Below are positions 5 through 64,000 of a stretch of DNA of 64,000 nt, one piece after another. Source of the stretch: Tribonema minus (Eukaryota; Sar; Xanthophyceae; Tribonematales; Tribonemataceae); contig JAFCMP010000013.1 of assembly GCA_017506865.1 (NCBI GenBank), forward strand, positions 186,001-250,000, read 5' to 3'. Under the pieces are notes generated by a model that was not told the origin of the DNA, ran no database searches, and saw nothing but the letters and a program-made list of their open reading frames with translations. Numbering within the stretch: position 1 is the stretch's first letter; the number at the start of each line of letters is the position of its first letter. The position numbers were made by a program, and so were the translations under genes.

Positions 5-479
5 AGAGGAGCAGACGGCGCAAATGCAGCGCCGTCCCGCAATGGAATTTGTGGAATCTGACTTCCTTTGCCCTTCTTTGCGGTGATCGCCTCCTGCAGA
101 GGAGCAGATGGGGGCAGACAGACGACGGGACTGCCTTCATGCACCTACTTGGGGGTACCCACTGAAACCCATGCACGCCAACCTGTGTGTGCCCGTTTCA
201 CCCATGAATTCATTATATATTACATGCACCAAGTGGGTCCAGCCCTGGTGATAAAAGTGTGTGTGCTGACTGTACCCCCTCTCTGTCCTGCTGTCGTGCA
301 GAGGAGCAGATGGGAGCAGACGGTGTTACTACGTTCATGCACATGGTGTCGGCAGCGGGCAGGCGGCACAAATGCAGCGCCATTTCGTAATGAAGTTCAT
401 GTATATGCTTACTTCCTTAGCCCTAGTTTGTGTATGCTGACTTTCTTTGCCTTGTTTGCGGGGTGATCGCCTCCTGCAG
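5..479 (+). repeat. Acceptor-side copies of the FNTB exon edge
   Basis: The sequence running from intron into exon at 467-520 (CTCCTGCAG followed by AGGAGCA.ATGGGGGC and a TTCATGCAC tract) recurs upstream. Copies start near 5, 88 and 291, spaced roughly 180-200 bases. Each copy contains the same CTGCAG acceptor-like end and about 20-70 bases matching the real exon start, then diverges or hits stops. Only the copy at 480 runs on into the conserved farnesyltransferase reading frame. I read these as decayed tandem duplications across the acceptor site. Confidence 0.75.
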
Positions 480-2454
480 AGGAGCAAATGGGGGCCGATG
501 GCGTGACCACGTTCATGCACATGGTGTCGCCAGCGGGCGTGCACAGCGGCGCGCTTGCCTACAATCAGCGCGACCTGCAGCGCTACGTACTGCTCTGTGC
601 GCAGCAGCCGGAGGGCGGGCTGCGAGACAAGGTGCGCAAGCGCTGCTGAAGGTTTGGTTACTGGGAAAGAGTTGAAGTTATGGTAGGGTTAGGGTTAGGG
701 TTCGGTTGTTGGGGTTTTGGTAGAGTTAGGGTTGCAATTAGATACAGTAGTAAGGTTAGTGACCTCCAGCGCTACGTGCTGTTTTGCGCGCAGCAGTTGA
801 AGGGCAGGCTCCGAGACAAGGCGAGGATGGCTGCTGAAAGTTTGGTTATAGTATTAGAGTTGGGGTGATGGTAGGGTAAGGGTTGGAATTCGGCAGTAGG
901 GGTAATGGTAAGGGTTACGGTTAGAATCAGGCAGTAACGTTTGTGACCTCCAGCGCAACGTGCTGCTGTATGCGCAGCAGCCAGATGGGGGCCTCAGAGA
1001 CAAGGTGAGCGCTGCTGCTCAGGGTTTGGTTGTTGGGGTTGTGGTAGGGTTTAGGTGGTAACGTTGTGACGCCCAGCGCTACGTGTGGCAATGCATGCAG
1101 CAATTGGAGGGCGGGCTTTGAGACGAGGTGAGCGCTGCTGCTTAGGGTTAAGGGTAGCCCTAGGCTAGGGTTGGAGGGGCATGAGCACCAGCTTCACCTG
1201 CACCGCTGCGCACTGCTGTGCGCACAGCAGCCGGAGGGGGGAACTCAGAGACAAGGTGAGCACGGCTGCTGAAGGTTTGGTCTAGTGAATACGGTTAGAG
1301 TTGGGTCATGTTAGGGTTAGGGTTAGGGTCAGGGTTAGGCAGTGGGGGTTATGGTGCGAACTAGAGTGGCCCTGCTCAAGTGGAGATGGCCCCTCACTGT
1401 CAGCGTTGCTGTTTGCACAGCGCAAGAACGTGTCAAGGTCTGGCTTAAGTCACCCAAGCAGCGATCATCCATTGTGTGCGCTCTGACCGTGAACTTCAAA
1501 TATGCCTTGAGAACTGACAGTGCCGCTCTGCAGCACTTGAGGCATAGACTTTGCCTGCGACTATGTCTGTATCCTTCCACCCATGTGCGACCAGGCCTGC
1601 ATTATGCTACTTCACGTGCTACTTCACAAACACAAATGCGCTGTCGCTCCTACCCCTAACCCTCCCTCTCGCGCTTTCTCTCTCGCAGCCCGGCAAGACG
1701 CGAGACTTCTACCACACATGCTACAACCTGAGCGGACTCTCTGTCACACAGCACTGCCTGACAGGTCCGACAATGGCGTTTGTATTGTTTCATCACTTGG
1801 ATTTATCGGTTCTCAAGGCCACATCATGGCTTTACTGATACGACAACGGGCCCCACAAAATGTATTCATGCCACAAACATACTTGCGGTCTGAAGTACAC
1901 TTTGGCGATGTTGTTTAGAAGTGATCGGCAATGTGCACTGCGACACTTTCAAGGTGTTCACAAAGGCACATGCAGATTCTAGTTTCATGCTCGCAAGTGT
2001 CGACATGTGCTGGTTGATCGTGCTCACATATCCATGCTCTGGTGCATGTGGTAACCTTCCTGTGCTCTGCTCACTTCCGCGTGAGGGACGGAAACCCCGT
2101 GACAGTTGCAAGATATGCAGGTTATATGTGCTTTTGTCAAGCATGTGCTCACAGCGCAATGGTGATTGCCGCGAAAAGCAGGTGCTACCTACGCTTACCA
2201 ACCGCCATGTGTCACGCTTCTGTGCTGCCATGTGTCACCCACACTCACTGACCGCCATGTGTCACGTTCCTGTGCCGCCATGTGTTCACCCTCCAGAGAC
2301 GCCCAGCGTTCTCGGCGATAGCGCCAACGAGCTGCTGCCGACTAACCCGCTCTACAACATTACGGAGGTCAAGGCTGCAATGGCCATGGCGCACTTTGCG
2401 AAACTGCCGTGCGAGCACGATGCCCTCATGCAGCAGCAGCAGCAGCGGCAATAA
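480..2454 (+). CDS. FNTB: Protein farnesyltransferase beta subunit, C-terminal part (3 exons; 5' exons outside window)
   Basis: This is the beta subunit of the cytosolic enzyme that attaches farnesyl to CaaX-box proteins. Exons inferred: 480-631, 1689-1764 and 2297-2454 (stop TGA/TAA class; reading ends at 2454). Translation gives a block ending CAQQPEGGLRDK, then PGKTRDFYHTCYNLSGLSVTQ, then a tail with LLPTNPLYNIT. These match the end of the prenyltransferase alpha/alpha barrel in FNTB, where the D-x-x-x-Y-H-x-x-Y run lies in the zinc/peptide site region and the N-P-x-Y-N-I motif is typical. Splice phases agree: exon 1 to 2 is phase 0 and exon 2 to 3 is phase 1, with a codon rebuilt as GAG. 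The protein ends in a short polyglutamine run encoded by CAG repeats. The zinc-ligand Asp/Cys exons and the N terminus lie before base 1. Exon edges are repeated in the flanking introns (see repeats). Family identification is from recalled motifs, with no alignment run. Confidence 0.85.
683..702 (+). repeat. Short TTAGGG-like interstitial repeat
   Basis: Three to four adjoining GGGTTA units lie inside an FNTB intron. A second run is at 1311-1339, and further short runs lie near 15062, 25895, 44822 and 45644. They are telomere-like but too short to be a telomere. Confidence 0.6.
760..1260 (+). repeat. Donor-side copies of the FNTB exon edge
   Basis: Four degenerate copies of the exon end at 570-631 (coding for LQRYVLLCAQQPEGGLRDK followed by a GT donor) occur near 760-830, 941-1003, 1068-1131 and 1190-1254. 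Each keeps the GACCTCCAGCGC.ACGTG..G and CAGCAG..GGAGGGCGGGCT cores and an ending like GAGACAAGGTGAGC, so several still carry a plausible donor. Frames are interrupted or lack a usable acceptor. This mirrors the acceptor-side copies upstream of the same exon. Confidence 0.8.
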
Positions 2455-2459
2455 CACCA

Positions 2460-2825
2460 GTGTAGTACGGCACACGTACCGTTGAATAGCCGTGGCGCGC
2501 TTTGCGAAACTCATGTTGCAGCAGCAGCAGCAGCAGCAGCGGTGGCGGCGGAGGCAGCAGCAGCAGCGGCGACGGTGGCAGCAGCAGCAGTAGCAAGTGG
2601 TGACATTTGACACCTTTGTAGTGCGCCCAGCACACGTACCGTCGAATTGCCATGGTGCCCTTTGCAATATTCGTGATGCAGCAGCAGCAGCATTGGCACC
2701 ACCACCAGCAGCAGCAGCAGCAGCGGCGGCGGCAGCAGCAGCAGCAGCAGCAGTGAGGGCGGCAGCGGCAGCAGCAGCAGCAGCAGCGCCGGCAGCAGCA
2801 GCAGCGGCAACGGCGGCGGCAGCAT

Positions 2826-2874
<49 letters not shown>

Positions 2875-8609: not shown

Positions 8610-8630
8610 CAGTGGACGTTACTTCATACA

Positions 8631-10594
8631 TTACTGCGCTGGCGGCGCGTCTGGCGCGGGCACGGTGCTCATGTAAACTTCAAAGTTGAACTCCGCGGGC
8701 GCGTGGTTGAACGCGCGCACCATACCATACAGCTCCTCGCTGCCAATGTAGTACCTCTGCATCAGGTCCAGAACCCTAACCCCCTCTGCGCGCGACAGCT
8801 GAGCCGTGACGTCCGCGCGCACGAGACCCACCCCCTTGCTCTCCGCCAAGTCCGAAAACAGGCTGACGCTCATGTACGGTTGAGCGCCGCTGGGGTTCGT
8901 CCGATAGTCGTCGAGGAATGTGAGCAAAAAGTGCGAGCCCTGGAACTGGCAGAGCAGCATGAAGTAGCCCCCGTCGGCGCCGCGGTGCACGGGGAAGATG
9001 AACATGGGGCTCTCTTTCGCGCGCTTCAGAAGCTCCTGCAGCAGACGAGGTGCATTGTGGGATTCATGAGGCGCGTTCAGTTGGAACCGTTTGGATATGG
9101 ACAAGACTTCAAGTGCGGTTGGTGGACAATGTTAGGCAGCACCTTGTTGACCTTCCAGGGCTATGTAGCTCATGGTGCAGGTGCATTTTGTGGACAAGAA
9201 CAGGTAGCCCCTTGACCTTTCAGGACTAGGTAGCATATCGTCCATGAGGCACATTTGGTTGATACCAGTTTGAAACGTGCAGGTGTAGATTGCGGACGAG
9301 ATCAGGTAGGTAGCCCCTGGCCTTCCAGGGCTAGCGCCTGACCTCCTGTAAACTGAGTTTATGTGCCGCCCCGGGTGCAATGTAGCTGTACATACCTTGC
9401 GCAACAGGCGCACCTGTAAGTACAGTCTGTCGGGATGGCACAAAGGGGGGCTTGAGGTCACACTTGGCCTTCTACCGTGGGCCTCACCTATCGCATACTG
9501 ACCAAAAGGCTGCTGCATGCACCGAATGCAGGGGTTTGAGGTGCTTCAAAGCTCAGATCCCGAATCAAAGTAGATCACATCGCTCACGGCTGCTGTGGAA
9601 GTGTACTTGAAGTATTCATGAATCTTGACTGCAGGTGAAGGTGAAGTTGGCGCCGCTTGAAGGAGGCAGTGCTCATCAGGGGGTATTCAGTAGGGTGCGC
9701 TGCTGTCACCTGCAGGCCCGCTCCGCTCGCTGCTGTCACCTGCAGGCCCGCTCCGCTGAACATTGCTGTTATGACATACCTACCCACAGCTCTGTTCCGC
9801 TAAGCAATGCCTGCACAATTGAGCTAAGCGTTGCTGCTATGTATGGTATACCTACCTGCAGCGGTGTTCCGCTGAGCGATGCCTGTAACTTGGCTAAGCG
9901 TTGCTGCCTGCAGCTCTGCTGCGCGCTGTGCACTGCTGCTGCTGTGGCATACCTACCTACCTGCACCTCTATTCCGCTGAGCGATGCCTGAAGTCTGGCT
10001 GAGCATTGCTGCAACTCTGATGTGCTGAGCACTTGCTGCTGTGGCATACCTACCTGCAGCTCTGATCTTCTAAGCGATGCATACAACGTGGCTGCGCGCT
10101 GCTGCCGGCAGCTCCCCTGCGCTGAGCGTTGCTGCTCTGGCATACCCTATCTGCAACTCTAATCTGCTGAGCGTTGCCTGCAGAACTTGGCTGAGCGTTG
10201 CTGCCTGCAGCTGTGCGGCGCGCTGAGCACTGCTGCTCTGGCATACCTACCTACCTACAGCTCTATTCAGCTGAGCGATGCAAGTTGCAAGATGGGCTGA
10301 GCGTTGCTGCATGCAATTCTGATGTGATGAGCACTGCCGCTCTGGCATACATACCTGCAGCTCCGCTTCGCTGAGCGTTGCTCCGATTACATACCTACCT
10401 ACAGCTCTGATGCCTGCGACTGAGCGTTGCTGCGTGAAGCTCGCCTCTGGCATACCTGCAGCTCCGCTCCGCTGAGCGTTGCTCCGATGGCGTCCTTGCG
10501 CGCGTCGTGAAACTGCCGCCAGATATCGCTCACGATCGCCGGCTCCTCCTTCTCCAGCAGCGGCAGGTTGGTGATCTCGCTGAGTTTTCGCGGC
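8631..10594 (-). CDS. ATP11: ATP11 / ATPAF1-type mitochondrial F1-ATPase assembly factor, last two exons
   Basis: ATP11 binds the F1 beta subunit in the mitochondrial matrix and prevents its aggregation during F1 assembly. Exons inferred: 10456-10594 and 8631-9035. The first encodes PRKLSEITNLPLLEKE and a DIWRQFHDARKDAIGA block, matching the family's R-K-L-x-x-I / I-W-x-x-(Y/F) opening. The second encodes KESPMFIFPVHR, FLLTFLDDYR, and the end region YYIGSEELYGMVRAFN then FNFEVYMS, matching the conserved ATP11 C terminus. Joining at the acceptor CTGCTGCAG|GAG is phase 0 and gives a gap-free alignment to the family as I recall it. For this reason I prefer it to the in-frame ATG at 9104, which lies in the intron. 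Exons for the N terminus and transit peptide were not found upstream. The donor of exon 10456-10594 is repeated many times in the intron. Confidence 0.85.
9140..9330. repeat. Tandem repeat in the ATP11 intron
   Basis: CCTTCCAGGGCTA or close variants (9150, 9213, 9317) occur with GCAGGTG.A.ATTGTGGAC.AGA spacers, giving three imperfect units of about 70-100 bases. Confidence 0.6.
9700..10455 (-). repeat. Array of ATP11 exon-donor copies
   Basis: On the minus strand the real exon ends with codons for ATLSGAELQ followed by GTATGCC. About nine or ten copies of this junction (forms like AGCGGA.C.GAGCTGCAG then GTAGGTATGCC) fill the intron with variable spacing of ~40-110 bases. Copies are seen near 9715, 9740, 9775, 9850, 9950, 10050, 10140, 10245, 10345 and 10395. 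Many keep a full CAG|GTAGGTATG donor-like sequence. The open frames on both strands here (repeating LQASLSGTELQVG-like peptides) are the decayed exon edge in repeat form. Confidence 0.85.
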
Positions 10595-10953: not shown

Positions 10954-11507
10954 TGCGGCAGTGCAGCTGTGCCTGTAAAAGTGGACTTGATCTGCCCCAA
11001 GTGCAAAAGGTGGGCACTGTACGCGCATGCATGAGGCGCATACAGGGGCATGTATGTATACACAAATGGTGTCGATTTTGCGATGTTGTACGGTACGGCA
11101 CACCTGGCCTCAGAGGGGCTGAAACTTTTATTCTGCGGAGCTGCAACGACTGCGTGCGTTGATGATGATGCAGGTGATGTGTGTGCGCCCAGCAGCAGGA
11201 CTGTTCACAGGGCTTCCAAGCTGATGCTATGCGGCAGTGCAGCTGTGCCTGTAAAAGTGGACTTGATCTGCCCCAAGTGCAAAAGGTGGGCACTGTACGC
11301 GCATGCATGAGGCGCATACAGGGGCATGTATGTATACAAAAATGGTGTCGATTTTGCGATGTTGTACGGTACGGCACACCTGGCCTCAGAGGGGCTGAAA
11401 CTTTTATTCTGCGGAGCTGCAACGACTGCGTGCGTTGATGATGATGCAGGTGATGTGTGTGCGCCCAGCAGCAGGACTGTTCACAGGGCTTCCAAGCTGA
11501 TGCTATG
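10954..11507. repeat. Near-perfect tandem duplication, 276-bp unit, two copies
   Basis: The copy at 10954-11229 and the copy at 11230-11507 differ by a single base that I could find (C at 11058-11060 region versus A at the matching site near 11335). The unit length is a multiple of three, so frames run through both copies on each strand, including a 272-codon minus-strand frame with the same 92 residues twice. The low divergence indicates a very recent event, or an assembly duplication. Confidence 0.9.
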
Positions 11508-11509
11508 AG

Positions 11510-11689
11510 GTGGACAGGGAAGCGAGGACACTGCTGCAGCAGATACAACGCTTTGAGGTTCACTGTGCAGAGGGGATCGCGGTCAATAGAGTGAATGAAC
11601 AGGAAGTGTATATTGACGCCGCACACAGCACGGCGGCAGTGCCGAGCACTGATGCTGCACTAGCGGCGACATCGTGTGTCATACCATGA
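11510..11689 (+). CDS. Possible terminal exon of an unrecognised gene
   Basis: Frame from GTGGACAGGGAAGCG to a TGA near 11689 encodes VDREARTLLQQIQRFEVHC, then a segment with VNRVNEQEVYIDAAHS and an Ala/Ser-rich end. The composition is protein-like and is preceded by an AG directly at the end of the 276-bp tandem duplication. An upstream exon could lie in the duplicated unit, where a Cys-rich reading of 10901-11008 ends at AAAAG|GTGGGC, but I cannot prove the join. No family recognised. Confidence 0.3.
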   Translation: MDREARTLLQQIQRFEVHCAEGIAVNRVNEQEVYIDAAHSTAAVPSTDAALAATSCVIP

Positions 11690-12587: not shown

Positions 12588-15500
12588 ATGGTGAGTGCAT
12601 GTGCGGCTCGGCCCGGTTCGTCCGATCTTACGCCTGCCCTCCAAGCCATCGATTCCAGATGAATGCGACCACTTATAGACTTTCTTGCTGACCAGCGCGC
12701 CACCCTGCTGCTGCTGCTCGTTTCGCAGAGGCCGATCCTGCTCAAATCGCACGAGCGCGCTATTACCTGCGTCATCTACAACGCGGACGGCGATCTGGTG
12801 TTCACAGCAGCGAAGGACAATGTGCCCACGGTCTGGCGGGCGGACACAGGAGAGAGGCTGGGCACATATATCGGTCACTCAGGGGCGGTGTGGGAGCTGA
12901 GCTGCCGGTGGGATTCCAAGTACCTGCTGTCGGCATCAGCAGATGCCACAGTGAGGCTTTGGGATGTGCAGACGGGGGAGAGCCTGGTGTCATACCCGCA
13001 CAGAGGACCCGTGAGGAGCGTTTGCTGGGCAGAGGGGGGGCAAAAGTTTGTGTCTGCGAGCCAGCCGTTCATGGACTCGCCGGGGTTCATATCGATCTAC
13101 GATACCCCCAGCGATGTGGACCCGTCACAGTATCAGCAGGTCGCCAGCAGGGAAATATCCATTCCCAACAAAGAAAAGGTGAGCGCACACTTGAGAGCAC
13201 AACACAACGAGTACACAGCGCAACAGGGCGTTACATCAAGCAGAGTTTGTGAACTGAGTAGCTAAACGGCAGTAATCACATGACCGGCGCCGCGCACTCA
13301 CGTTGGCATTGCGGCAACATGAATGCTGGGGCACCAGTGTACTTCCCATCTGGCTTTATTATCGCATCTGCGGTGAGCGAAACCTCTTAGGTCAAGTAGC
13401 CAGGGGACTTCAGGATGACCAGATTCATCCATAACCGCGAGCGACAGAATTCATGTGGCGCACTGTGTGCGGTTTTCGCAGGTATAAGCAGGTATAATTA
13501 GACAATGTAGTCGTGACAGGAAAGCTTGATGTGAAAGGCGCACAAGTTTTCATCGAAGATAGGCATAGACCCTGTGACGGCAACCTTGCAGGGCGGCGTG
13601 TGTGAGCTTGCAGAGGCTGGCAGCATCCGCACTTCGACGCGCCGACCCTGACGTTAACCCTAATTGTGTGCACTGGTCATCATGGCTGCTGAGGTACCCC
13701 AAGTGCACTGGCCCTGAGTGCCGTCGCTACCTCCAGCGCCACTGGCGGCTGTCTCAGCGCAGCAGGCGAGCCGTTGAGAGTAATGCTGCAATGCTTCCCT
13801 GGTCAGCTCACGTTTCTTCATCTGTATCAAGTTAGATGAGCTGCATATCAGCTCTCAAGTCAGTGCTCCCGCACCTGACGCCTGATGTGGTGCAGTCCAA
13901 ATGCAGTTCAAGGAGACTGGTCGCGCTCATACAGTGACTGTACCGCCACTGTACTGCAATGTACTTACAACCATGATCCTAGATGTGTACACACCCACCC
14001 TCTCATGGCAACGCTCAGCCACCTCACACCACTCAGCACGCTCTTGCACACTTTTGCATGCGCTTTTGATGTAGCAAGTAGGAGTTGCGCCAAAGCCTCT
14101 GCTCCCTGGCGTTGAGCTGCCAAGCATTAGGGGTAGGGTTAGGGCTGGGGTTTGCAGCCGCAGGAGCATACTCTGTTGGTGTCAAGGTCTTGATCGCAGA
14201 AGTGGCGCATCTGCCTCCACTGATCTTAGGCCGTCTTTTATGGCAATCAAATTGGGCGATCGAAATCGGGGCCCAAACGCCCCTTTTAAATCCATGCCAG
14301 TTTCAAAGCAAAGTGACCTGGACTTTTGCGTGAAAATGAGGCCAACAGAACGGCCACGCAAATCGGGCACAGACTCTTCGAGACGAACAGGCGCAGAACT
14401 GCTGACGTTTGCATGGCGCAGGCTCAATGCGGCGACGCCCGATCCGTTTTGAATGGGACTTTTGTGCCCCATAAAAGATGGCCTTAGTAATGCAATGACC
14501 GCCTACTGCTGTATGCATTACACAGCAAGTTACACATATACGTGTTGGACAGTCGCTCAAGTGCGATGCTGTTGGCCAAGTCTGTGAGCGGCAGCAGCGG
14601 GCTGGGGAGAGGTCTCAAACAGCTACAATGGATGCCGTGATCCTGCAACAGCTCTCAAATATCTCTCATGAGAAGCACAAACACAACTTCAACATCTCCG
14701 ACGCAGCATACTGTTCTTGCAGTTTGGATATCACTGAGTGTTGGTGCTGTATGTGAAGGGGTGCAGTAGCCTAGCAGGCATGCACTTCAAATATTATTGG
14801 TGGAAGGCATTCAATTGGACGGCTAACCACACCTTGTCACCTAGAGCTCTGCAATCTTTTGATTCGTTTCCATGGAAGTACTGACTCCATGTTAGGGGGC
14901 TAGGGCCAGGGTTTCAGATTACCTGCACTTTCCCCTGAACCCTTGCATTCAGCATTGCTTCGTGATGAATGTGAAGCCAGCAACACCCTTTTGCGTATAG
15001 CAGACACGTGATACCTGATTTAATTGACTTTGCACCATTCAGTCAAAGACTGGCCACCTCTAACCCTAACCCTCCCCCCCCCCCTCCCCCCACCCCGTTG
15101 AGCGCATGGAGGTCCCCTGGTCGGCACTCAACGTCCGCATCCTTGCGGCATTTGACGATCAGTCCGCAGTGGTGGCTATTACTCTGTGCCCTTCCCCTGC
15201 GCCACGACTCATTGTTCTTGTTATGGCTGCCGTACTCACAACCCAGCCCCCCCTCCCCTGCTTCCCTTTTACGCAGTGCACGGAGGTCCTTTGGTCAGCG
15301 CTCAACGATCGCATCCTGGCGTCATTCGAAGACGGCACGATCCGCGTCTTTGACCCCGAGACGGGGGAGCTGCTGAGCACTTCCACGCCGCACTCCAAGC
15401 CCATCTCGCGCATGTACCTCAGCACGGACCGCACACTGCTGCTCACCTGCAGCAAGGACTACACCGCCAAGCTGCTGGACGCGGACACCCTGGAGGTAAC

Positions 15501-18305
15501 ACTTGAAGTTGAATTGCAGGCAGTGTTGAAGTTGGATCACGGATCGCACGCTGCTGCTCACTAGCAGCAAGGACTACACCGTCAAGCTGCTGGACGCGGA
15601 CATGCTGGAGGGAGACTTGAAGTTTATAGGGAGAAGTTGAAATGGGTGTGTGCGTGTGTACATAATCTGGAGTTGGGCGGTTGCAAAGTTACAGCGGTGG
15701 GGGCTCATGGAGTTTATTGTGGTTGTGGGGGGGTGATGTTCAAGCATAGGGGTCTTTGAAGTTGGATTGTGGAGTGTCATGGAAGAGTTGGAGCATGGAG
15801 GGCTGGAGTTGCGCGCAGCACGGACCGAGCAGACTTGTGCGGGGTTTGGAGTGGCATGCAGTACGCGCTGATCAGACCTGGGTGTCTGACCTTGCCTACT
15901 CAAAACCTTCGTGCACCAAAGTCTATTATTTTCATGTTGTGAAGTGCGCCACTGACAGTGTCAATGGTGCCACTGACAGCGAAGCGACAACCGTATTGGT
16001 TGAACCTGACTTCTATCCACAAGCTGCATGTCACCAGCAGCAAGGACTGGTTCGGGAAGCGGCCACATGTCTTGAAGTTCAAATATCGATGTCACTTGCG
16101 GCTGTGATGGTAAGGTGGACGTCAGGGCATGTGTGGGGACGTGCAGTAGAGCGCTTTCTGTTACTTTGTGTTAACTGTGCCGCCGCCCCCTTCTTCGCTC
16201 GAATTGAAGTTACATTTGGCGCTCGGTTGCACCTCCATGTTGACGCTCGGTCGCAACTGCCCAGTCAGGTGCTCAGGTGTGCGCCATGGAGCGGCGGGTG
16301 AGTGCTGGCGCCGCCCGTTTCATGTGCAAGTTGAAGTTTGTGTGACGCACCTTTTTTATGTGACGCACAGCGACGGGTGAACGCCGGCGCCGCCCGTTCC
16401 ATGTGCAAGTTGAAGTTTATGTGACGCACCGCCCCTCACTTACTGCTGGTTCCAGGTGCTCAAGTTGTACCCCACTGAGAGGCCGGTGACCGCTGCCGGT
16501 TCCTTGTTCAACTTGAAGTTTACTCATGCCGCCTTGATATTGGATGTTTCAAAAAGAAGTGTACTGCACACCTCACGTTACGTGCGGCTGTAACTGCTTG
16601 TAACTGTATGCTTTCAGGTGCTCAAGGTTTACCCGACAGAGTGGCCCGTCAACGCCGCCCCCCCCCTTTCCTTGTTCAAATCGAAGTTTATTTGATGCAA
16701 TTGAAGTTTATCTAATGCAAGCTTCACATGTGACGCACCACTGGTTTCAGGTGCTCAAGCTGTACCCTACGGAGCGGGCGGTGAACGCCACGGTGATTCA
16801 GGAGCTGCTGCCGCCCATTGTTGATCCAACTTTGAAGGTCATTTGTATCGGACCTTCACAAAGAAGTGTACTGCACAACTCGACACACAGTAGCAACTGC
16901 CCATTCGTATGCTCTCAGGTACTCAGGTTGTACCCACGGAGCGCCCGGTGAACGCCGCCGTCCGTCAGTGCTTTCTTCAACTTGAGATTTCTCCTGGACG
17001 CCTGGTGGCGCACAAAATCAAGCAACTTCACACCTCACACTCGACGCCTGGCTGTAACTGCCCACTCGTATATGCAGGTGCTGAAGGTATACCCCACGGA
17101 GCGGCCCGTGAACGCGGCGGTGATCCACCCTACCAAGGACCACATCCTGCTGGGCGGCGGGCAGGACGCCATGAGCGTAACCACCACCGGCTCCAGGGTC
17201 GGCAAATTCGAGACGCGCTTCTACCACATGGTGAGTCGGACACACTGAGTACTGCTGCTGATATTACAGACTTCCCCCCCCCTCTTCCATGTACAAGGGC
17301 TTTTCAATGTACAAGGGTGAGTACGACCAGCGTTTGCGCCTTGCTAAGACTTGATGAGCGTCACCAGCACAGGTTTTAGGGCCGTCGAGTTTGAGACGTG
17401 CTTCTACCACATGGTCAGTCAGACACTTTGATCTCTACTTTTAGTTCTTTTACTTGAAGTATGTACTTCTATGTGGGTGCACATGCAACCAGCACTTGCA
17501 CTGGCTGGGTGGTTGAGCATCGCCACTGAGATCAGGGCCAGCTCGAGACGAGCTTCTACCACATGGTGAGTCTGACCCGCTGAGTATTACTACAAAATCA
17601 CTTTTTGATAATGTTTCCCCCTTCACTATATGTTCAAGTGTGGAAGTGCGCGCAGCCAGCACCTGCGCTGGCTGGGTGGTTGAGCAATCACCATTGCTGA
17701 CTCCATGTGAGTCGCGCTTTTACCTCATGGCGAGCCACACACTCTGAGTGTTACTACTAGCTGACACTATAATTAACTTTTTAGAATACACGAGCTTCAC
17801 AGCCATGTACTTTGGAGTCAGTGGGTGAAGTATGTAAGCATATTGGTGTACCACCAGCATTTGGCTAGATTGGTGAAGGAAGGACTTCGGCCGTGTCAAG
17901 GTGCTCCATCAACTCAACCTGACCCTAAACCGACCCCCAACGGCAGCAGAGAACACAAGAAGTATATGGAGGGGAATATTACTCAAAGCAAAGCATCAAG
18001 TACCATGAGTGTACAGCGTACATGACCAAGTAGTGCAACTGAATGACCATGTGACCCCCCCCCCCCCCCCCCTCCCACCGCAGATCTACGAAGAGGAGTT
18101 CGGCCGCGTCAAGGGGCACTTCGGCCCCATCAACGCCCTCGCCATCAACCCCGACGGCCTCTCCTACTGCAGCGGCGCGGAGGACGGCTACATCCGCCTG
18201 CACCACTTTGACCGCGAATACGTAGACAAGCAAGACGAGGTTCCCGATGAGCTGGAGGAGCTCGACGAGACGGAAGCCGACCAAAAGCCCGACTTGGAGG
18301 AATGA
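12588..18305 (+). CDS. EIF3I: Translation initiation factor eIF3 subunit I (WD40), complete, 5 exons, 348 aa
   Basis: eIF3i is a seven-blade WD40 propeller in the eIF3 complex and works in 43S pre-initiation complex assembly. CDS exons inferred: 12588-12590 (ATG only), 12729-13178, 15277-15495, 17078-17230 and 18084-18305. Every intron is phase 0 with GT-AG ends. The protein starts [14 protein letters not shown], as in the family (MRPILLKGHER). It continues through [80 protein letters not shown] and [15 protein letters not shown], all close to the metazoan and fungal protein. It ends in an acidic tail after [10 protein letters not shown]. Length is slightly above the usual ~325-347. The start codon is the last three bases of exon 1, so the in-frame ATG at 12663 belongs to intron 1 and is rejected. 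Introns 2-4 carry a MITE and many copies of exon edges. Confidence 0.95.
14229..14483. mobile_element. Tourist-like (PIF/Harbinger-type) MITE, 255 bp, in eIF3i intron 2
   Basis: The left end GGCCGTCTTTTATGGC and right end GCCCCATAAAAGATGGCC are inverted repeats (about 15 of 16-18 positions pair). Both ends are flanked by TTA (14226-14228 and 14484-14486). A TTA/TAA target duplication with termini starting GG(G/C)C is the hallmark of PIF/Harbinger elements and their Tourist MITEs. No transposase is encoded. Frames running through the element on both strands have no known domain. Confidence 0.7.
14795..14882 (+). repeat. Dispersed repeat, copy 1
   Basis: It shares the core TTGTCACCTAGAGCTCT with a preceding GG(A/C)GGCA.T.. 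block and a following GATTCG.TTCCAT with copies at 46856-47040 and 61885-61982. Located in eIF3i intron 2. Confidence 0.7.
15100..15175 (+). repeat. Upstream partial copy of eIF3i exon 3
   Basis: GGAGGTCC..TGGTC.GC.CTCAACG and CGCATCCT.GCG.CATT match the real exon at 15281-15330. The copy then leaves the frame. It is an acceptor-side half-exon without a clear AG acceptor. Confidence 0.8.
15535..15615 (+). repeat. Downstream partial copy of eIF3i exon 3
   Basis: It matches the real exon end at 15425-15497 (ACGG.CGCACGCTGCTGCTCAC, AGCAAGGACTACACCG, TGCTGGACGCGGACA, ending CTGGAGGG). The intervening sequence has a stop (TCACTAGC). A weaker third relic, CACCAGCAGCAAGGACTGG, lies near 16030. Confidence 0.85.
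16254..17077 (+). repeat. Six acceptor-side copies of eIF3i exon 4
   Basis: The real exon start at 17074 (CAG|GTGCTGAAGGTATACCC.ACGGAGCG.CC.GTGAACGC) is preceded by copies near 16264, 16370, 16455, 16618, 16749 and 16918. Several start with CAGGTGCTCAAG and code for [15 protein letters not shown] peptides. The copy at 16749 extends to GTGATTCAGGAGCTG, the longest match. Spacers are rich in AAGTTGAAGTTTA. The copies have intact acceptor-like CAG but no matching donor. Confidence 0.9.
17375..17770 (+). repeat. Three donor-side copies of eIF3i exon 4
   Basis: The real junction at 17210-17245 (TTCGAGACGCGCTTCTACCA.ATG|GTGAGTC.GACAC) recurs near 17385, 17540 and 17705. These keep GAGACG.GCTTCTACCACATGG or GTCGCGCTTTTACCTCATGG followed by GTCAGT, GTGAGT and GCGAGC respectively. 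Spacing is about 155-175 bases. One copy therefore keeps a consensus donor. Confidence 0.9.
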
Positions 18306-19261: not shown

Positions 19262-22200
19262 TCACGGGTCACGACCAGTGAGATCGGGGTCATCCAAAGC
19301 GTGCTTGGCCCACTTCTTGGCAAAGCCAAATGACTTGCCAGGCAGCACCTTGGCCAGCTCCAGATTCTGGCACACGAAGCATGGCGACGGAGAGAAGGCC
19401 GACCGTCAGATGCCTGCTGCTGTTGTTGTTGAGGCAAGTGTTGAGGTGGCGGACTTCAAGAGGAGACACCCCTGTTTTCTGCAACAACTGTAACGTTCTC
19501 TGGGTGCCGGTGGGCTGCCGGCATGCATCTTGCACGCAAGTATAGATGCTTCACACATATGATTGCCCGGAATCAGAGCACACGGGAAGCACAACAAGGT
19601 ATTCATGTTGCATAGCAGCATGTATATAGGTTGGGGCGTGACAAAAGAGCCGGCAGCCACAGCTGTTCAAACAGCAACAAAGCGCCGCTGCATTTGTACT
19701 GTTCCCTACTGCTGCAGTCTCAGCGACCGACGCCGAGCACTGACATGCACAACGAAGAAGCTGCGGCCCCGCCTGACAATGACGCCTTTAAAACAAAAGA
19801 GGATTTAATAGTGACAGCACCATCTCGCTGTTGTGTCCAGCACAATTCGCGAACGATACACACACATTGTGTGCGTCGGCTGCGTTCACCGCGCCACACT
19901 CGCGTCAATGAACCGACTTGCGTAATGTATGGATGATTGGAGGTAAATGGCACTGTGCAAACGGCACACTGCTTAGTAGTAGAAGTACAGCTTATGTGGA
20001 TCACCTCAGAAATGCGTGGCCGCAGCACTGCGACGATTGCGCAAGTGAACGTCCTCACCTCATGCGCAAAGGACTTGAAGTTGGGAGTGAAGTTTGGCAG
20101 CGCGCGCGACCAGAAGCTGCCCATGGCCTTGGCCTGCTTCTGCATGGCGTCGCCGCTCTTGACGGCGAATGCCGCGAGCGTGTCAGGCCAAGGCTCCTCC
20201 TGCTGCTGCTGCTGTCGCTGCTGCTGCTGCGAGTCAAGACAATGCAGCCCTTCGGCAGTTGAGTATGCTAACTATAGTGCACTGGTGTGAAATCATGCAG
20301 TCAAAAGCGTTCGAAGCGTGTCATTGGAACCTGCTCTTGACGGCAAATGCCGCGAGAGCGTCGGGCCAGGGCTCCTCCTGCTGCCGCTGCCGCCGCTGCT
20401 GCTGCAGGTCAGAGCAGAGAGCCGTTCGGCAGCTGAGTACTTCACCCACAAGCCGCACACTCATGAAGTAGACAGTGAAGTCAAGTGTGTCATTGGAGCG
20501 TTGCTGGAGCCGCAAGGATAAGGTCGGCCGTGCCATGCACTTCAACAGGTACACCTCAACCTCAACTGTGTGACCTCTCACGCGCCGCCGCTGCTGCTGC
20601 TGCTGCAGGTCAAAGCAAAAAGCCGTTCGGCAGTTGATTATACGAACTATAGTGCACTGGTGTGAACTCATGAAGTCAAAAGCGTTTGAAGCGTGTAATT
20701 TGAGTGTGCGTTGGTGCTGCAGGGGTTAAGGTTAGCCATGCACATGAACATCCACAATTAACCTCAGCTGTTTGACAGCTCTTCATTGGTCACTACACAG
20801 GACTGGTGACTGCTGGAGCTGCCAGCGGATAAAACGACCTCATGACCGGAATGCACAAGGTTTTAGGGTACACACAGCCTGGCAGAGCATGAACATGAGA
20901 TCATAAGCCCACAACATCAGCCCTGCATGAAACCAAGCTGGGTAATCAAACTTGAACTTACAAACCTGCACTTAGCCTGGTTGATTGCGGAGGCAAACCG
21001 AGTGAGTGCGCTGCGCATCGTCACGTTGCGGCGTGGCTGCTTGAGCGGAAGTCCCATCTGCTCCCATAGCGCAACTGCCGCGACCATGCACACGAACAAA
21101 CTGGGTGCACCCAAGAAAAAGAAAAATATGAAAGATTTTTTTGGGAAAGTTTGCAATTAGTTTATGGAGTTTTTAAAGGTTATGCATCGGAGGGATTTGA
21201 AAAAAAAAGAGAAATCTAGATTTTTTTTTTTTAAATGCTGGTGCAACAAAGCGCAACCCAACGCGAAACTGCCTTCACACTCACCTTCTTGCGCCACAGC
21301 AAAGCTACCCACATCACACGTGCTAGCGCACCATACCCATACCTCGTTATGAGTATGCTGCTGGAAAAAGCTCAGCCGGCGACCTGCCGCGGAACTTCCC
21401 TCAGAACTGTCCATACCGTAGCTAAGTCATGCACGCTGTCCACACGACAACGAAACGACAGGCAGTAATTTCTGTCCATGCGCGCAGTGCCGGTAGCATA
21501 CCTGGGTATGGGTATGTTGCTGAGGCGAGACTGGCCGATCGGGCCCTAGCTCTGCCTGCCTGCTGCCTGCACCCGCTGCTGCTGCTGCTGCGGCTGCGGC
21601 AAAGTCGTGTGTCACGACGTGCGCACCTCCGGCTGTCGCCCTCGTGCCATTCTCATTCGCGTTTGGATTCCTCCTAGCGCGTGCAGTAGGCAACGTGCGG
21701 CAGTGAGCGAACAGTTGAGTTCTCACTCGCGTGAGCGAACAGTTTTAAGTTCTCATTCGCGTTTGGATTGCTCTAGCGGGCGCACCAGTCAAGGTGCAGC
21801 AGAGAGCGAACAGTTGAGGCTAGGCACGAGGTCTGGGTTCTGACACAGCCTTTTCAGCATATAGGCGTGCTGTCAGGTTCAGCATAGCTTCGGTTACTGA
21901 TTGCACTGTGGCAGTCGCATGGGACACCTCAAGTATGCATGAAACAAGAGGCGTTCATCACAGTTGGGGATACCACACAAGTCACACGTGGACACTGAGT
22001 GCTGCAGCCACAGGAGTGTCTGTCCAACAATCGCACAAAGAAGGAGGCAGCTCGAGCGTGACGACAGCCGGTGACTGCGGCAGAGGTGCTGCTGCTGCGC
22101 ATGTCGCAGTGCATGTATCGCAAGGCTTCAATGCGAGAGACAACATGTAGACGATAGCACTGAGACTCCTGCTGCCCGAGGCCTTTCAAGACACTCTCAG

Positions 22201-23403: not shown

Positions 23404-26400
23404 ATGAAAAAAATCAGCACGGGAGAGAGGGTGAACCTGCAGGACATACGGAGAGGCATCGACCAACTCCGACTTTCGCACACCGATGCCGCAATCGCGG
23501 GGGAGCAGATGCTGGTGGAGGAGCTCATGGATACTACGCCATCAAGCAGTTTCGGCGAGGATGCCTGGCGGGACGGCTACATCTACGATGGCGCAGCCGG
23601 CGGAGCCTCTCCCAAGGACTACAGCGACGACGATGGCGCCGAGGCAGTTGTCAGTGGGTCTTATCCGCCGGAGGGGCAGGAAAGCCAGGATTTGTTCGAG
23701 AAGGTGGAGGTTGCGAAACTGCCTGATAGCCAGGACAGCAACCCCACATCTCTGCTGAGCGGCGCGTTGGCGGCGGTGAAGAGCCAGGAGCAGCAGGGCC
23801 CGGGCATCGGAAGTGCTGGCTGGTCTCCACTGATGGCGAGCATCATGGAGAGCGGGCTCAGCCGCAGCGAGAGCAGGAGCAGCACTAACGATGGCGATGA
23901 GGATGGAGAGGAGGCAGACATGGCGGATACGGGGGGGTGCAGCGCTAGGCAGCTCATATCGGCTGTGCTCAAGGAGTGCCAGGTATGTACGCACTTTGTC
24001 TCTCGGCCTTACTTGTGGAACACCTCCGGCCTTCATCATGACCCATTATACCTTCAGATACACATCTCTAGCATCGAGATCGTTACAAATGTGCATCTTG
24101 TGTCGATAAACGATGCATCAGGCGCCCTTCACGGCTCGGAAACGGATGTGAAGCTGAAAAATCTCATTAAAAACTGAGAATTCGACCTCCCGTTTGTGCG
24201 GCAGGGCAGCAGCAGCTATGATGCTGTTCAAATTATCAGTATTTTCGTTTGTAGTTTGGTAGTATGGAGCTGCTGCCTTGTTCTCTGTCTCAGCCAGCAG
24301 GGTATTCAGATGATGCTGCCAACTGCAGCTTCGACTTGAAAATTGATGCCTCATGGTCATGGAGATGATCACATCAAAAAGGTGCTCAGGCTGTTTGCGT
24401 CACGCAAGAATGCCTCAGCCACGTGCGCCAGCACATTGACAATGTCTAGTGCGTCGATGGCTTTGAGCAACAGGCGCTGAGTTCAGGCAAGTCCTGGAAA
24501 GACGCTCGAAGACAGTAGTTCAAATGGCAGCATTCCAGCTGCAACGGTTTACTTTGGCTCCGAAACGTGCGCTGAGAGGTGGACCCTGTGTCAGCACGCA
24601 GACCCTGTATCAGCACGCAGCTGTGCTCAACCAAGAGGCGTTGGCCAGGCACGATGGACTTAACGCTCAAAACTCTTTCTCGGCAGTTCTGGCAGAGAGA
24701 GTCACTCTCCCACAGGCCTACGGTGTTTTGCTGATCGCGTGTTTCGTGATAGTGGAACCCTAACTTCAACACCTGTCAGGACGTCATTTTAAATAAACAG
24801 AGAGGTATGGCGCGATGCCAGGTCTGGCTTAAATAGCTCTTGTGCTCAGCAGAAGAAGGCTGTTTGTGATTACCAGTAATGAGGGGGTCGCGACTCGTCT
24901 TCAGTGATTCGTGAGTGAAGTACTTACAACTTGTGTAACGGCGTCTTGCTAGTCGTGTGTTCCAAGCAGTGAAGCCCCTAACCTCAATACCTATCTGGAT
25001 GCCATTTTGAATGAACACAGATGTGTAGCCAGTGCCAGGTCTTGCTCAGGTAGCTTGTTCACTCATCACAAAATAGCCGCTTGCGGCAAACACCAATGAG
25101 TGATTCGCGACTGATTGTCATTGACTCGTGATTGAACCACGACTCGTTGAGCGTTGTGAGCCGACTTACGGCGCCGTCGTTGCGGTGCCGCATGGCGCTA
25201 ATACATGCCTTACATGACGGAGTCCCAAGTCATGCTGAGCGTAGCTGTGATGACAGTGAAGCGACGCGATGGGTAATGTTGGCATCATGAGGCACGACAT
25301 CAGTCGCAACATGTGGTCTCGCAGCATGAGTCACAACGTGACTCGCAACATGAGAGTAATATCACGACTCCCAACATTACTCACACATCGGGGGGTGGCT
25401 AGTGGGTTACAGTCAGGGTCTTAGCTCTATTAGGGTATTTATCAATAACCGAAAGTCGATTTTGGGGTGAAGGTTAGGACACGCCAACAGTGTGTTTCCA
25501 GCCAGCCTATCGTTATAGGTGGCGCCACCTGCTGTTGTGGCGGCGCCTGCTGTTGCAGGTGGCGGCACTGGCCCGTCACACTTCAGTGGCTCTTTGTTCA
25601 ATTGAAAGGGCTGCGCTTTGAGCGCGTTACTACTCATTCGACTTCCTTCAGACCCCAACATCCTCAAAGAGTCGACTGATCAAGGCTAGGCACTCTACAC
25701 AGTAGGTGCATTGGGTTGCTGCAAGTTGATTGCGCATTCGAGCGTCAGCCACAGTTGAAGTTTTCCGTACTGCGCGGGACCCCTGACGCCTTGTTCAGAA
25801 CCACTCGCATGCACTGGCGCTTACACTTCCCCGTTCCAGTCACTCACTCACCGACTCACTCGCTTGCAACCCCCACTCACTCTCGGCAGGGTTGATGTTA
25901 GGGTTTAGGTTAGGGTTAGGATGAGGCATTGCGCTGCGCTGTTTCTCATGCTGAACTCTTGGTGGTTCTCACCTTTCAAGGCGTGCACGCATATGACATT
26001 GAGCCCGAATGGCCTCAGCATGCTTCTGCCCTGCGCACTGCGGACACAGCCAACTCACTAACGATGAAGCACCGTCCAATCAATAACAATACATGCCTCA
26101 CCTCTGCCCCCCCCCCCAGGCCTCCGACATTGCGCCGATTTTGCACAACCGGCCGCCGCACGATTTTGACCTGCGCATTGCGGACGACGGCCAGCCCGAC
26201 CTCGACTTCCCAGAGCTCGACAGCGCGGCGGCGATCATCGATGTTGGCGTGGACGAGTTTGTCCTGTGCGAGGCAGGGGGTGCGGTGCCCCTGCTGGTGG
26301 TGGAGGTGGTGGTGGAGGGGGGGGGCGGAGGGGGGGGCAAGGGGGGGTACTCTTTGGTTTTGCAGGTGAGTTGACGGTCTGCTTTCGTTGAGTGAGTTGC

Positions 26401-29400
26401 TTATTGGGGGGGGCTAAGTGACCTGTGCATGAGTGTCGCGCATTAAATTGGGGGTGCCTGCTGTTGTCTTTTTGCTGGTGGTGGAGGCGGAGGTGGTGGT
26501 GGAGGGGGGGGGGGGGGGGGGGGGGTACCCTTTGGTTTTGCAGGTGAGTTGAAAGTCCGTTTTCGTTGCGTTGTTTGTTGAGGGGGGGCGGAAGTGATCT
26601 GTGCGTGGGTGCCGCGCATAGAATTGAGGGTTCTGCTGTTGTCTTTCTGCTGGTGGTGGAGGTGGTGGTGGTGGAGGGGGAGGGCGGGGGGGGGGGGGGG
26701 GCAAGGGGGGGTACTCTTTGGTTTTGCAGGTGAGTGGGCGGTGCGGATTGTTGGTTTTTTTCGTTGGGGGGGAGGGAGGGGTTAGTGTAAGTGATCTGTG
26801 TGTAAGTGGCATTGTGAAATTCCAGGTTTCTGCTGTTGTCTTTCTGCTGGCGATGGTGGTGGTGGTGGAGGGGGGGGACAAGGCGGGGTACTATTTGGTT
26901 TTGCAGGTGAGGTTGAGGGTCTGGGTTTGCTTTTTTTTTTTGTGGGGGTTGTGGGGGTGGCGGTTTGGGGGGGGCAGCGCAAGTGATCTGGGCGTGAGTG
27001 CAGCGCATAAACTCGGGCGCTTTGCTGTTATTCTTCAGCTGGTGGTAGCGAAGGGGGGAAGGGGGGGGGGGGGGGCAGGGGGGGACTGGGGACTCTTTAG
27101 CCTTGCAGGCTAGTTCAAAGTACGGAGTATCTGTTCTGATAAGGATCAACGCAAGCGTACTGCGCACTTCAACGGCCCTGGTGGTCGTGGGCAGAAGGAG
27201 GGAGGAGGGGGTACAGTACTCCTTTGTTGTGTGCCAGTAAGTCGAGAGGCTTACTGGCAAGGCACAACGTGACGGGGTAACGTGAAGGTGGAGGGGAGGG
27301 GGGTTCTTTTGGGCCTAGTGGAGGCGCGCAGAAAGCGTCTTCAGCAGCATGTTTGTGCAACACACTGACAACTCTGGCAGCAAGGTATAGTGCGCAATCA
27401 CCCCAACCCTAAATTCACCCCCTAACCATACGGCCACCATGCCGCATGTACGCGGCAGCTGTTGCCGCAATGCGGCTGTCCTTGCTAGACCCGGTGCGTC
27501 GTGCGCATATTCATGTTGAAGTAGGTGGTGCGGCGAGCACCTTCATGCGCAGGAACCTGCGTCATTGAGGGCAGCCCCCCAGTTTGTGCGGCAGTGGCGC
27601 AGCAGTTACGGCAGTTACGCAGCAGTTGCGGTGTGCCCGTGGCAGCACTCGGCTGAGCAATGGTGCATCGCTCAAAGAGCCATACGGAGCCCTCACTCTC
27701 CAGATCGCCACCATTCCATTCGTCTCTATGTAGGTTCATAGGGGTCTGCCGAGGCCATCGTTGTTTTCTCGTACTGCTGCACATGGATACATTGGTAGCT
27801 GATATGATTACGCCGCACCCGATGCGCAGGTGTCGTTGTTTGAGCCGGGGCGGGAAGATCAGCGCCGCAGCATGTGTTTGCCGATAGAGCTCCTGCCGGA
27901 TCCGTTGTGGTACGGCGCGAGTACCACACTGCAGACGCGACGGCGAACAAGGTCAGCACTTGAAGAAGTTGCTAACCTCAAATTGAAGTTGAAGTGGGTG
28001 TTTATGCGCACTGGTTCACATGTACGGGTTCAGCACTTGGAGTTGATAACCTCAAATTTGATGTTGATGTGGTGTCCGCGTACAGGTGCATCACTTGAAG
28101 TTGGTAACCTCAAACTTGATGTTGATGTGGGTGTCAGGTTCAGCACTTGAAGTTGATGACCTGAAATTTGATGCTGATGTGGGCGTCCGCGTACAGGTTC
28201 ATGCAGCAGGCCTCAGTTCGACCGCTGCGAACGTCTTGGCTTCTGTCAGTTTTTGTAGCTGCCTAACTGTCACGCTTTGCACCTGTGGTGTATGCAACAG
28301 TCTGTATGTATATGCGTACGTATGCGTGTGCGCGCGCGCGCGGTCTTGACAGACTCGCACATTGTTCATTGATGAGGAGAATGACAGACTGGACATGTTG
28401 CTTGTTTATCAGGAGAAGCAGATTGGTCGTGTACATATGCATTTGTTCTTCAGCATAGCTGCAACGTCATGTAGAAGTAGTAGATGCGGTGCAGCACCGG
28501 CGCCAACTGCAGCAAACGCAAGCAGATACGTCAGAACGCCCCCTGTCATGCGGTTACCTACAATGCTCTTTGCGTACCTGCTAATGCCCATGCGTCTGTC
28601 TGCTACGCGTTGCGTGCCCCCCTCCAAATCAGCAGCAGTCGCACCAGTGGGATAAGCGGGGAGGGCGGCAGCAACGACCCATCTGCACTCACGCGCATAC
28701 GCAATATAGATACTGGCGAGGTGAGAGCTGCGCAACCTTTCACTATTCACACCGATGTTGAAGTTTGTTGCATGAGGCAGCAACGACCTATCTGCACTCA
28801 CGCGCATACGCAATATAGATACTGGCGAGGCAAGAGCTCAGCAGGGCCCATCTATGTTGGAGTTTGTTGCATGAGGCAACTGCAGGCCAGCACCTGTGGC
28901 TCTGTGCTTGTCTGCAGATTGCTCAGACAACGCTGCCAGCTTTCCCCTGTCATTTCTGTCAGTTTGTAGATGTGACGCTGTGTTTGTTCTCGTGATAAGG
29001 CACCCAGTTGCTCACAATGCCACGGTCCTATCCAGTTTTCCCGCATTGCCTCGCCAGAGTCAAATGCCACGAACCTCCTGGCTCAGATGTCCACGTTTCT
29101 GATTGCTGCTGCCTGCCCTGCTGAGCTGCCATCATTCATGCTGCATAGCTCCACGTCTACTTCTTCTGTGCCTCCCTTCTCACCTGCCCACCCACCCCCA
29201 CCCGCGCCCACCCCCCCCTCCCACCCCCTGGAGTGTGCAGGAGGCTAACCTTTTTTGAAACCTGCAGGAGTGGTACTCGAGTGCTTGTTGCTCGCACTCG
29301 TCCTGGCTGCGCGCTCCTGCCAAGCTGCCATCATTCATCCTGCAGGCTCCACACCTTCTTTGTGCCTCTCTTCTCACCCCCCCCCCCCCCCCCGACCCCC

Positions 29401-29519
29401 CCTCCTCCCGTGTGCAGGAGATAAACGTCGGGGACTACGACAGCATGGTACCACCGGGCGTCAGTCCGCAGCGCCTGTTTGGCAGAGGCGCATACGCTGT
29501 ACAGCGCGGCAGCCGATAG
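23404..29519 (+). CDS. SIN1/AVO1-like TORC2 subunit with CRIM domain, 5 exons
   Basis: SIN1 is the TORC2 subunit whose CRIM domain recruits AGC-kinase substrates such as Akt or SGK. Exons: (23404)-23982, 26120-26365, 27830-27951, 28636-28720 and 29418-29519, all GT-AG, with phases 0, 0, 2 and 0 that restore one frame to a TAG. The recognisable block is FDLRIADDGQPDLDFPELDS followed by a helix-strand with EFVLCE. It matches the CRIM acidic loop (human form IAEDDGEVDTDFPPLDS...L.E). The N-terminal exon is acidic and disordered (GYIYDG, DEDGEEADMAD). ATG 23404 is one possible start. The frame is open back to 23176, so the start is uncertain. The RBD and PH domains typical of SIN1 are not visible, and only ~100 residues follow CRIM, so this is a short or divergent form. 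The CRIM exon ends in a Gly/Val repeat region that is multiplied in the next intron. Confidence 0.65.
24715..25150. repeat. Imperfect tandem duplication, ~240-bp unit, in a SIN1 intron
   Basis: ACGGTGTTTTGCTGATCGCG...CTAACTTCAACACCT.TC and following blocks (CATTTT.AAT.AACA, GCCAGGTCT.GCT) at 24718-24935 recur as diverged counterparts at 24940-25150. No coding potential seen. Confidence 0.55.
26285..27240 (+). repeat. Donor-side copies of the SIN1 CRIM-exon end with G-rich minisatellite
   Basis: The exon end at 26290-26365 (GGTGGTGGAGGTGGTGG, a G-run, GGTACTCTTTGGTTTTGCAG and then GTGAG) recurs with donors near 26543, 26729 and 26908. A degenerate copy lies near 27105 and a weaker one near 27235. 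Spacing is ~180-200 bases. Each copy keeps GCTGGTGGTGG, a G-run and TTTGGTTTTGCAGGTGAG, so several consensus donors compete after near-identical coding bases. The long proline-rich minus-strand frame across this region is an artefact of the repeat. Confidence 0.85.
27952..28200 (+). repeat. Four tandem units, each starting with GT and ending with AG
   Basis: Immediately after the donor of exon 27830-27951, units of ~50-76 bases repeat: GT.CA(G/T)CACTTGAAGTTG, ACCTCAAATTTGATGTTGATG, GTGTCCGCGTACAG. Unit borders near 28028, 28086, 28138 and 28196 mostly read CAG|GT. Each unit therefore has the minimal ends of an intron. The CACTTGAAGTTGA core is the motif that recurs all over this window. Confidence 0.8.
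28770..28832 (+). repeat. Copy of the fourth SIN1 exon end with decayed donor
   Basis: GGCAGCAACGACC.ATCTGCAC through ATAGATACTGGCGAG repeats the exon end at 28662-28720 almost exactly (one mismatch seen). It is followed by GCAAGA, where the real donor is GTGAGA. The following ~40 bases of intron are also shared. Confidence 0.9.
29105..29245 (+). repeat. Copy of the acceptor region of the last SIN1 exon
   Basis: GAGCTGCCATCATTCATGC..CA, TGTGCCTC.CTTCTCACC, a C-rich tract and GTGTGCAGGAG.(C/A)TAA match 29318-29424 in order. The copy lies ~190 bases upstream and keeps the TGTGCAG acceptor plus the first coding bases. Confidence 0.8.
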
Positions 29520-30040
29520 CACGCGCCAGTCGCATCTGCATTCAGACAAGTACTATACATACCGCATGCGCCCCGCTGCTGCCGCCTCATTCTTCTTCCC
29601 CAGCCGCGCGTTCTACTGGCTGGCATACCCCCCCCCCCCTTACCGTACACAACCGCCCCCCCCTCCCATGTTGGCACCCTTTTGCTCCCGAATACAGAGC
29701 GCACGGCGCTGTGCATTGAGACTGCACCGAGCTCGCACTACGTCTCTCTTTGCTGCCTTGGCTTTGATGTGTGTGCAAGCGCACGTTCACGTGCCGTACA
29801 TATGTCTGTTGCGTGCACTGATGTCAGCATACACTGTGGGTTGCATCCTTGAAAATTGGCTTTGCCACTCTGCAAGCGCATGTTATGTTGTGCTTCTCTG
29901 GGAGTGCACGCGCACAGCATTCACACTGTGCGCATTCACACAGCGCACTCGCAATGCCGGGCATTGATGGCAGGGGGTTCCTGACCATCTTGAGTTATCG
30001 TTCGCCTGGAGCGGTTTGTTTGCCAACATCCTGTACTGAC
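29520..30040. other. Gap with no supported gene
   Basis: C-rich tracts at 29629-29640 and 29657-29668. Short frames only. Probably the 3' region of the SIN1-like gene and then unassigned DNA. Confidence 0.4.

Positions 30041-63031: not shown

Positions 63032-64000
<969 letters not shown>

Follow-up and report, generated by a model that had tools for sequence, protein, structure and literature searches.

Tandem copies of exon-intron junctions in introns of Tribonema minus and their probable origin by short duplication

A window of 64,000 nucleotides from Tribonema minus (Xanthophyceae; assembly GCA_017506865.1, contig JAFCMP010000013.1, positions 186,001 to 250,000 of the forward strand) contains genes whose introns carry repeated copies of their own exon-intron junctions. 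These copies, originally noticed in five genes within the first 30 kb of the window, are confirmed as real and are more widespread than first noted. They are contiguous tandem units that lie outward of the exon, i.e. upstream of acceptors and downstream of donors. They decay as non-coding sequence, lose their GT and AG dinucleotides at a near-neutral rate, differ in their breakpoints between donors and acceptors and are spaced similarly to repeats that lie wholly within introns. The process that builds them is likely to be tandem duplication of an ordinary, short kind, with selection on splicing and on the protein deciding which duplications survive.

The genome comprises 158 Mb in 554 contigs, of which 354 kb from four contigs (0.2% of the genome) were sampled: C13:86001-350000 from the contig that holds the window, and 30 kb each from C1 (C1:100001-130000), C38 (C38:150001-180000) and C553; in addition, 1 kb of C51 was read. 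Exons were called by script from codon usage and splice-site matrices, not from RNA. Candidates of low complexity, repeat-masked candidates and those longer than 1500 bp were removed; there were 197 candidates with a score of at least 9, 26 of which were removed as copies of stronger candidates. The main counts use an exon score of 12 and a junction score of 4, and a copy is defined by at least 15 exonic bases within 2 kb after a donor or 2 kb before an acceptor.

Outward copies accompany 42/78 donors and 37/89 acceptors and span the junction in 39 and 32 of these, respectively; inward copies occur at 7/78 and 11/89. At 69 junctions there are outward copies only, and at 8 inward copies only (p 3e-13). 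Shuffled queries matched at no donor and no acceptor and reverse-complement queries at 5 donors and 2 acceptors, both being upper limits as any match was counted. Exon edges compared with the intron of another gene matched at 0/78 donors and 1/89 acceptors. The polarity described in the original prediction holds in the sample, as does an excess of copies over shuffled queries. With the exon score lowered to 9, outward copies occur at 48/96 donors and 44/112 acceptors (inward 11 and 16); with the score raised to 20, at 23/43 and 18/47 (inward 0 and 2). Local repeat pairs in C13:86001-350000 number 437 direct and 17 inverted.

Broken down by region, copies occur at 5/8 donors and 6/10 acceptors in the first 30 kb of the window, at 23/35 and 20/36 on C13 left of the window, at 6/18 and 7/24 right of it, and at 8/12 and 4/12 in the C553 piece. 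The pieces of C1 (0/4 donors, 0/5 acceptors) and C38 (0/1 and 0/1) count against generality, as does the window from 30 to 64 kb, where no donors were called and 0/1 acceptors have a copy. Local repeats are very few in the C1 and C38 pieces.

Protein-family searches, evaluated exon by exon (chaperonin 56 matches, kinesin 132, tRNA synthetase 28), delivered further cases on other contigs. Here a copy is a shorter match lying at least 0.94 within the profile range of its longer neighbour. Seven partial-exon copies were found beside six exons of six genes on C51, C135, C5, C246, C511 and C445; the three upstream ones repeat the start of the exon and the four downstream ones its end, and 0 show the reverse arrangement. 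These counts are lower bounds, as only the best candidates were scored, and they omit 17 overlapping pairs that are not fully contained as well as one pair between two copies of one exon. The chaperonin exon on C51 (from L032:561) is preceded by copies that start at 191 and 378 and have a CAG of their own in front; downstream of its donor, at 828, lies a copy whose exonic part ends at 969. The predicted genome-wide habit thus extends to several contigs, as seen in 354 kb and seven family-search copies rather than in a full count.

With longer queries, a copy spanning the junction was found at 74/167 junctions. The nearest copy is spaced 77-219 bp from its source in 68 of these 74, with one at 44 and five from 352 to 1589. 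Copies within 230 bp have an exonic part of 13-106 bp, typically about 50 bp of exon, plus intron. The homology fades approximately 70-100 bp into the exon and carries on through the intron part of the unit, where no window between +5 and +110 has a z below 5.6 and 42/56 pairs are above z=2. The units are contiguous tandem duplications within the gene: direct, adjacent and uninterrupted repeats of their source. Copying of exon edges only, as suggested by BLAST alignments that end soon after the splice site, is argued against by the window-wise homology test, and an origin from spliced RNA is ruled out by the unspliced intron in the units. An inverted-repeat or transposon origin was rejected on the predominance of direct pairs and the near absence of matches to non-cognate introns. 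Nor are the units duplicates of whole exons: a copy extends as far as the exon-side end of the query, set at up to 100 bp, in only 0.8% of cases on the donor side and 2.2% on the acceptor side.

Repeats that lie in introns only (186 pairs) have a spacing spectrum similar to that of the exon-edge pairs (167). Tandem copies that span the stop codon and lie downstream of it occur at 2 of 13 candidate gene ends, namely FNTB and a gene outside the window whose end is at 122284 in window numbering. A third match, at the end at 99652, is 860 bp away and was not counted; on our reading it lies among transposase- or reverse-transcriptase-like open frames. No such copy was found at the remaining ten ends. 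The similar spacing and the stop-spanning copies indicate a process that is not specific to splicing. Together with the lack of enrichment of AG|GT acceptors they leave unsupported the original suggestion that AGGT segments, or junctions as such, are what is duplicated. Acceptors reading CAG|GT are real (17/89) but unlinked to the copies, which accompany 8/17 of them versus 29/72 of the others. Among four young two-copy tandem duplications the breakpoints overlap by 5, 2 and 4 bp in three and not at all in one. The stretch 10954-11510 of the window is a young 276 bp tandem duplication (99% identity, 5 bp overlap) with no called exon inside.

The copies add intron sequence, which agrees with the claim that they lengthen introns, but intron length and repeat coverage are not correlated (r 0.09). 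In 85 gaps between same-strand exons 28% of the bases lie in detectable local direct repeats. Such repeats are held by 80-90% of the gaps per length class above 600 bp (n=74) versus 27% of the 11 shorter gaps.

Differences between exon and copy fall on codon positions 1/2/3 as 315/277/624 over 217 sampled copies (469 synonymous and 546 non-synonymous codon changes), close to the approximately 1:1:2 expected for a drifting copy and an exon accepting mainly silent changes. In the exonic parts 67/81 indels are not multiples of three. On the strength of these frame-breaking indels and the codon-position pattern, the reading that the copies are still coding was rejected. The impression by eye that the chaperonin copies are almost purely synonymous was not upheld over the 217 copies; the chaperonin copies came from a protein-profile search, which favours copies of this kind. 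Divergence ranges from approximately 4 to 26% (5th to 95th percentile) with indels, and identities above 95% are rare among the sampled copies, which may point to an older duplication wave or to collapsed young repeats. Intron parts score above the 95th percentile of unrelated introns in 0.78 of 63 cases. Decoy splice sites are seeded, as had been foreseen: GT is retained in 83/105 copies and AG in 67/81, compared with 0.81 expected from the mismatch rate at positions 1-2. As retention is near this neutral value, the decoy dinucleotides are neither purged nor kept. Donor positions -3 to -1 are retained more often (321/336).

According to the explanation that we favour, gene bodies of T. minus would gather direct tandem duplications of approximately 80-220 bp with near-random breakpoints. 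A duplication within an exon would harm the protein and be lost. A duplication straddling a junction would be nearly neutral, in that the innermost copy, continuous with the remaining exon, would still yield the normal protein, as long as the signals needed to splice this copy stay in place. For an acceptor this would require a unit with about 66 bp of intron or more, so as to include the branch-site region; a donor would require less. Repeated events would leave introns partly made of decaying pseudo-junctions. The breakpoints may arise by slippage or microhomology-mediated repair, as is suggested by 2-5 bp of microhomology in three of the four young two-copy duplications, and the spliceosome may prefer the innermost site by recognizing the exon as a unit. 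The outward polarity follows because the copy joined to the rest of the exon has to be retained, so that polarity alone is not evidence of a special mechanism.

The intron length within the units differs between the two sides (Mann-Whitney p 0.003), with a minimum of 66 bp on the acceptor side (n=29) and 20 bp on the donor side (n=40). All 29 acceptor units have at least 66 bp of intron and therefore room for the branch-site region; under uniform breakpoints, given the unit lengths, this has a probability of approximately 7e-9 for a threshold set post hoc. In the sequence leading up to acceptors, TAAC and CTNAY are most frequent 30-45 nt before the site. Without a minimum the uniform fit fails (acceptors 4e-7, donors 1e-5), and with a minimum of 65 bp the acceptor breakpoints fit a uniform spread (p 0.48). 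The intron-minimum pattern is what survival of functional junctions predicts, and in our view no other result argues as strongly for random duplication followed by selection. A mechanistic bias against mostly-exon units (4/69 above 0.6) was considered as well; at acceptors the rarity of such units fits a minimum-intron filter. CCCCC occurs 135 times in the 12-60 bp before the 89 called acceptors versus 32.5 expected from farther upstream, and the polypyrimidine tracts look often C-rich.

Several observations weigh against random duplication plus selection. The 66 bp threshold was picked after the data had been viewed, and setting a minimum of 20 bp does not make the donor breakpoints uniform (p 0.009). 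Changes that only one copy carries are uneven over the codon positions (0.064, 0.061 and 0.093; p 9e-6), with an excess at position 3 that is probably due to base composition and to changes which the exon acquired from one duplication to the next. Intron parts have diverged further than would be expected from the exon parts of the units (median score 0.23 versus 0.50-0.59 in three neutral simulations); a higher mutability of intron sequence might explain this, as might gene conversion by the exon. Finally, junctions are spanned by duplications (39/78 and 32/89) more often than deep-intron points (82/713 and 94/713) and far more often than points far from genes (8/357 and 7/357). This last difference, together with 1.84 intron repeats per kb versus 0.30 per kb far from genes on C13, is what a junction-directed process would produce, in which transcription or splicing, e.g. 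through breaks or R-loops at exon-intron junctions, leads to preferential duplication of junctions or of transcribed DNA. Exon-anchored copies are, however, easier to detect: searching with nothing but the intron part recovered just 25/63 known junction duplications. Allowing roughly for this reduces the lead of junctions over deep intron but leaves it at about two-fold. Points far from genes may lie in younger sequence that derives from transposons and is only partly masked. With intron-only repeats spaced similarly, stop codons also spanned, and spliced RNA excluded as template by the unspliced intron, we regard junction-directed copying as improbable.

It is less probable still that the copies are functional, as alternative or recursive splice sites or as decoys that tune splicing, even though the majority of decoys are intact, exon parts are better preserved than intron parts and one deposited gene model passes through two decoy segments. 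The NCBI T. minus FNTB model (P0121, 525 aa) has 65 aa beyond the exon model made here (compared over window positions -1104 to 640); a second GGKEGGAIRPEHGESPEPGN and one GADGSRRCYYVHAHG map to donor-side and acceptor-side decoy copies, and seven aligned relatives are shorter or unrelated in the extra stretch. These segments may represent either mis-annotation or real splicing. Retention of GT and AG at the neutral level, the frame-breaking indels and a codon-position pattern fitting a free copy all speak against function, and the deposited eIF3i model uses 0 decoys. An assembler could collapse or expand near-identical young copies, and few copies exceed 95% identity; no positive evidence of an assembly artefact was found, and with divergence and indels as given above, in conserved genes on several contigs, such an artefact is hardly credible. 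Introner-like or other mobile elements carrying splice sites would suit the many introns affected; the copies, however, resemble the exon beside them, have next to no counterparts in other introns, which dispersed elements would have, and are direct, local and in tandem with the source, which makes this origin extremely unlikely.

Self-BLAST of the window yielded 62 local direct repeats, 52 of which begin before 30 kb. Copies are present in all five places originally named, i.e. FNTB, ATP11, eIF3i, the gene at 19-22 kb and the SIN1-like region (Table 1); in the last of these the repeats stand, but the junction positions are not fixed with confidence. Joining the eIF3i exons of the window gives a protein that matches NCBI T. 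minus eIF3i with 100% identity across 348 aa. In the first two FNTB donor-side copies the decoy donor is GC near 821 and GT near 1005. The FNTB intron contains telomere-like TTAGGGTTAGGG at 689-700 and 1311-1328 (three matches, none expected), and 63055-63739 is a pure GCA repeat of approximately 228 units.

Table 1. Exons and junction copies in the window (window numbering)
Feature	Position	Strand	Remarks
FNTB exon, copies on both sides	480..631	+	CAG before 480, GT at 632; matches NCBI T. minus FNTB protein
FNTB acceptor-side copy (of 427-520)	48..144	+	79.8% identity, self-BLAST
FNTB acceptor-side copy (of 472-538)	294..360	+	86.6% identity, self-BLAST
FNTB donor-side copies one and two, of 572 onward	761..1050	+	from 761 and 945; spacing ~189 and 373
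FNTB donor-side copies three and four	1074..1355	+	from 1074 and 1196; decoy GT near 1128, 1255
FNTB copy spanning the stop codon	2430..2752	+	3' of stop; partly GCA repeat
ATP11 intron array	9725..10482	-	3' end of exon 10456-10579 with donor repeated
eIF3i exon, copies on both sides	15277..15495	+	
eIF3i acceptor-side copy (of 15247-15332)	15078..15158	+	74% identity
eIF3i donor-side copy (of 15423-15510)	15538..15624	+	88.6% identity; decoy GT lost
eIF3i exon, copies on both sides	17078..17230	+	acceptor CAG|GT
eIF3i acceptor-side copies	16447..16961	+	from 16447, 16609, 16741, 16895; another near 16268 by eye
eIF3i donor-side copies	17354..17757	+	17354-17426, 17543-17586, 17652-17757
Unrecognised gene (19-22 kb), exon	20059..20226	-	computed call only
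Acceptor-side copies of exon 20059..20226	20333..20703	-	20333-20439, 20584-20703; spacing 178 and 376
SIN1-like array, ~180 bp units	26291..27124	+	end of called exon 26120-26365; G-rich, junction uncertain
SIN1-like region duplication	28667..28878	+	spacing 109, around GCGAG|GT
SIN1-like region duplication	29108..29409	+	spacing 198, before exon called from 29418

A bolder form of the favoured explanation, which we hold to be possible but rather doubtful, would make junction-straddling duplication a main route of intron growth in this lineage, tied to gene bodies and enriched at junctions, with surviving breakpoints as a footprint of what splice sites need and with the spliceosome telling the true site from decoys by exon recognition. 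The copies imply that introns can lengthen without transposons, by a route that is neutral only through the way splicing works. If this is true genome-wide, one species would offer many natural tests of how the spliceosome chooses among near-copies, and the duplication boundaries would map functional splicing signals (here no less than 66 bp of intron for acceptors and as little as 20 bp for donors). Annotators are warned that the deposited FNTB model takes in segments that map to decoy copies.

Among the open-access titles and abstracts that the literature search covered, none presents junction copies as a systematic feature. In dual-specific splice sites (PMC10809524) AGGT can serve as either site, which resembles the CAG|GT acceptors of T. 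minus, whereas AG|GT acceptors in T. minus are unassociated with copies and give no sign of such use. Tandem exon duplication (PMC9013439) likewise repeats exon sequence in the adjoining intron; the units in T. minus comprise partial exon edges with one splice site and not whole exons. The nearest single-locus precedent found is the potato RdRp gene (PMC4974935), where a tandem duplicate of intron-exon structure carries the branch site, polypyrimidine tract, 3' splice site and a small exonic segment and created a new intron that is used; T. minus differs in that many junctions are affected and the copies look unused. Intron gain of the AGGT type also adds splice sites by tandem duplication within a gene. 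There, however, duplication of an exonic AGGT gives rise to a new intron between the copies, whereas the T. minus units straddle an existing junction and the intron grows, with no new intron evident, so that the proposed link to intron birth is not supported. Internal gene duplication in the sense of Gao and Lynch 2009 is reportedly common and may take in exon-intron boundaries. Relative to it, as far as the literature searched shows, what is new in T. minus is the scale of the duplications and the filter by which they survive.

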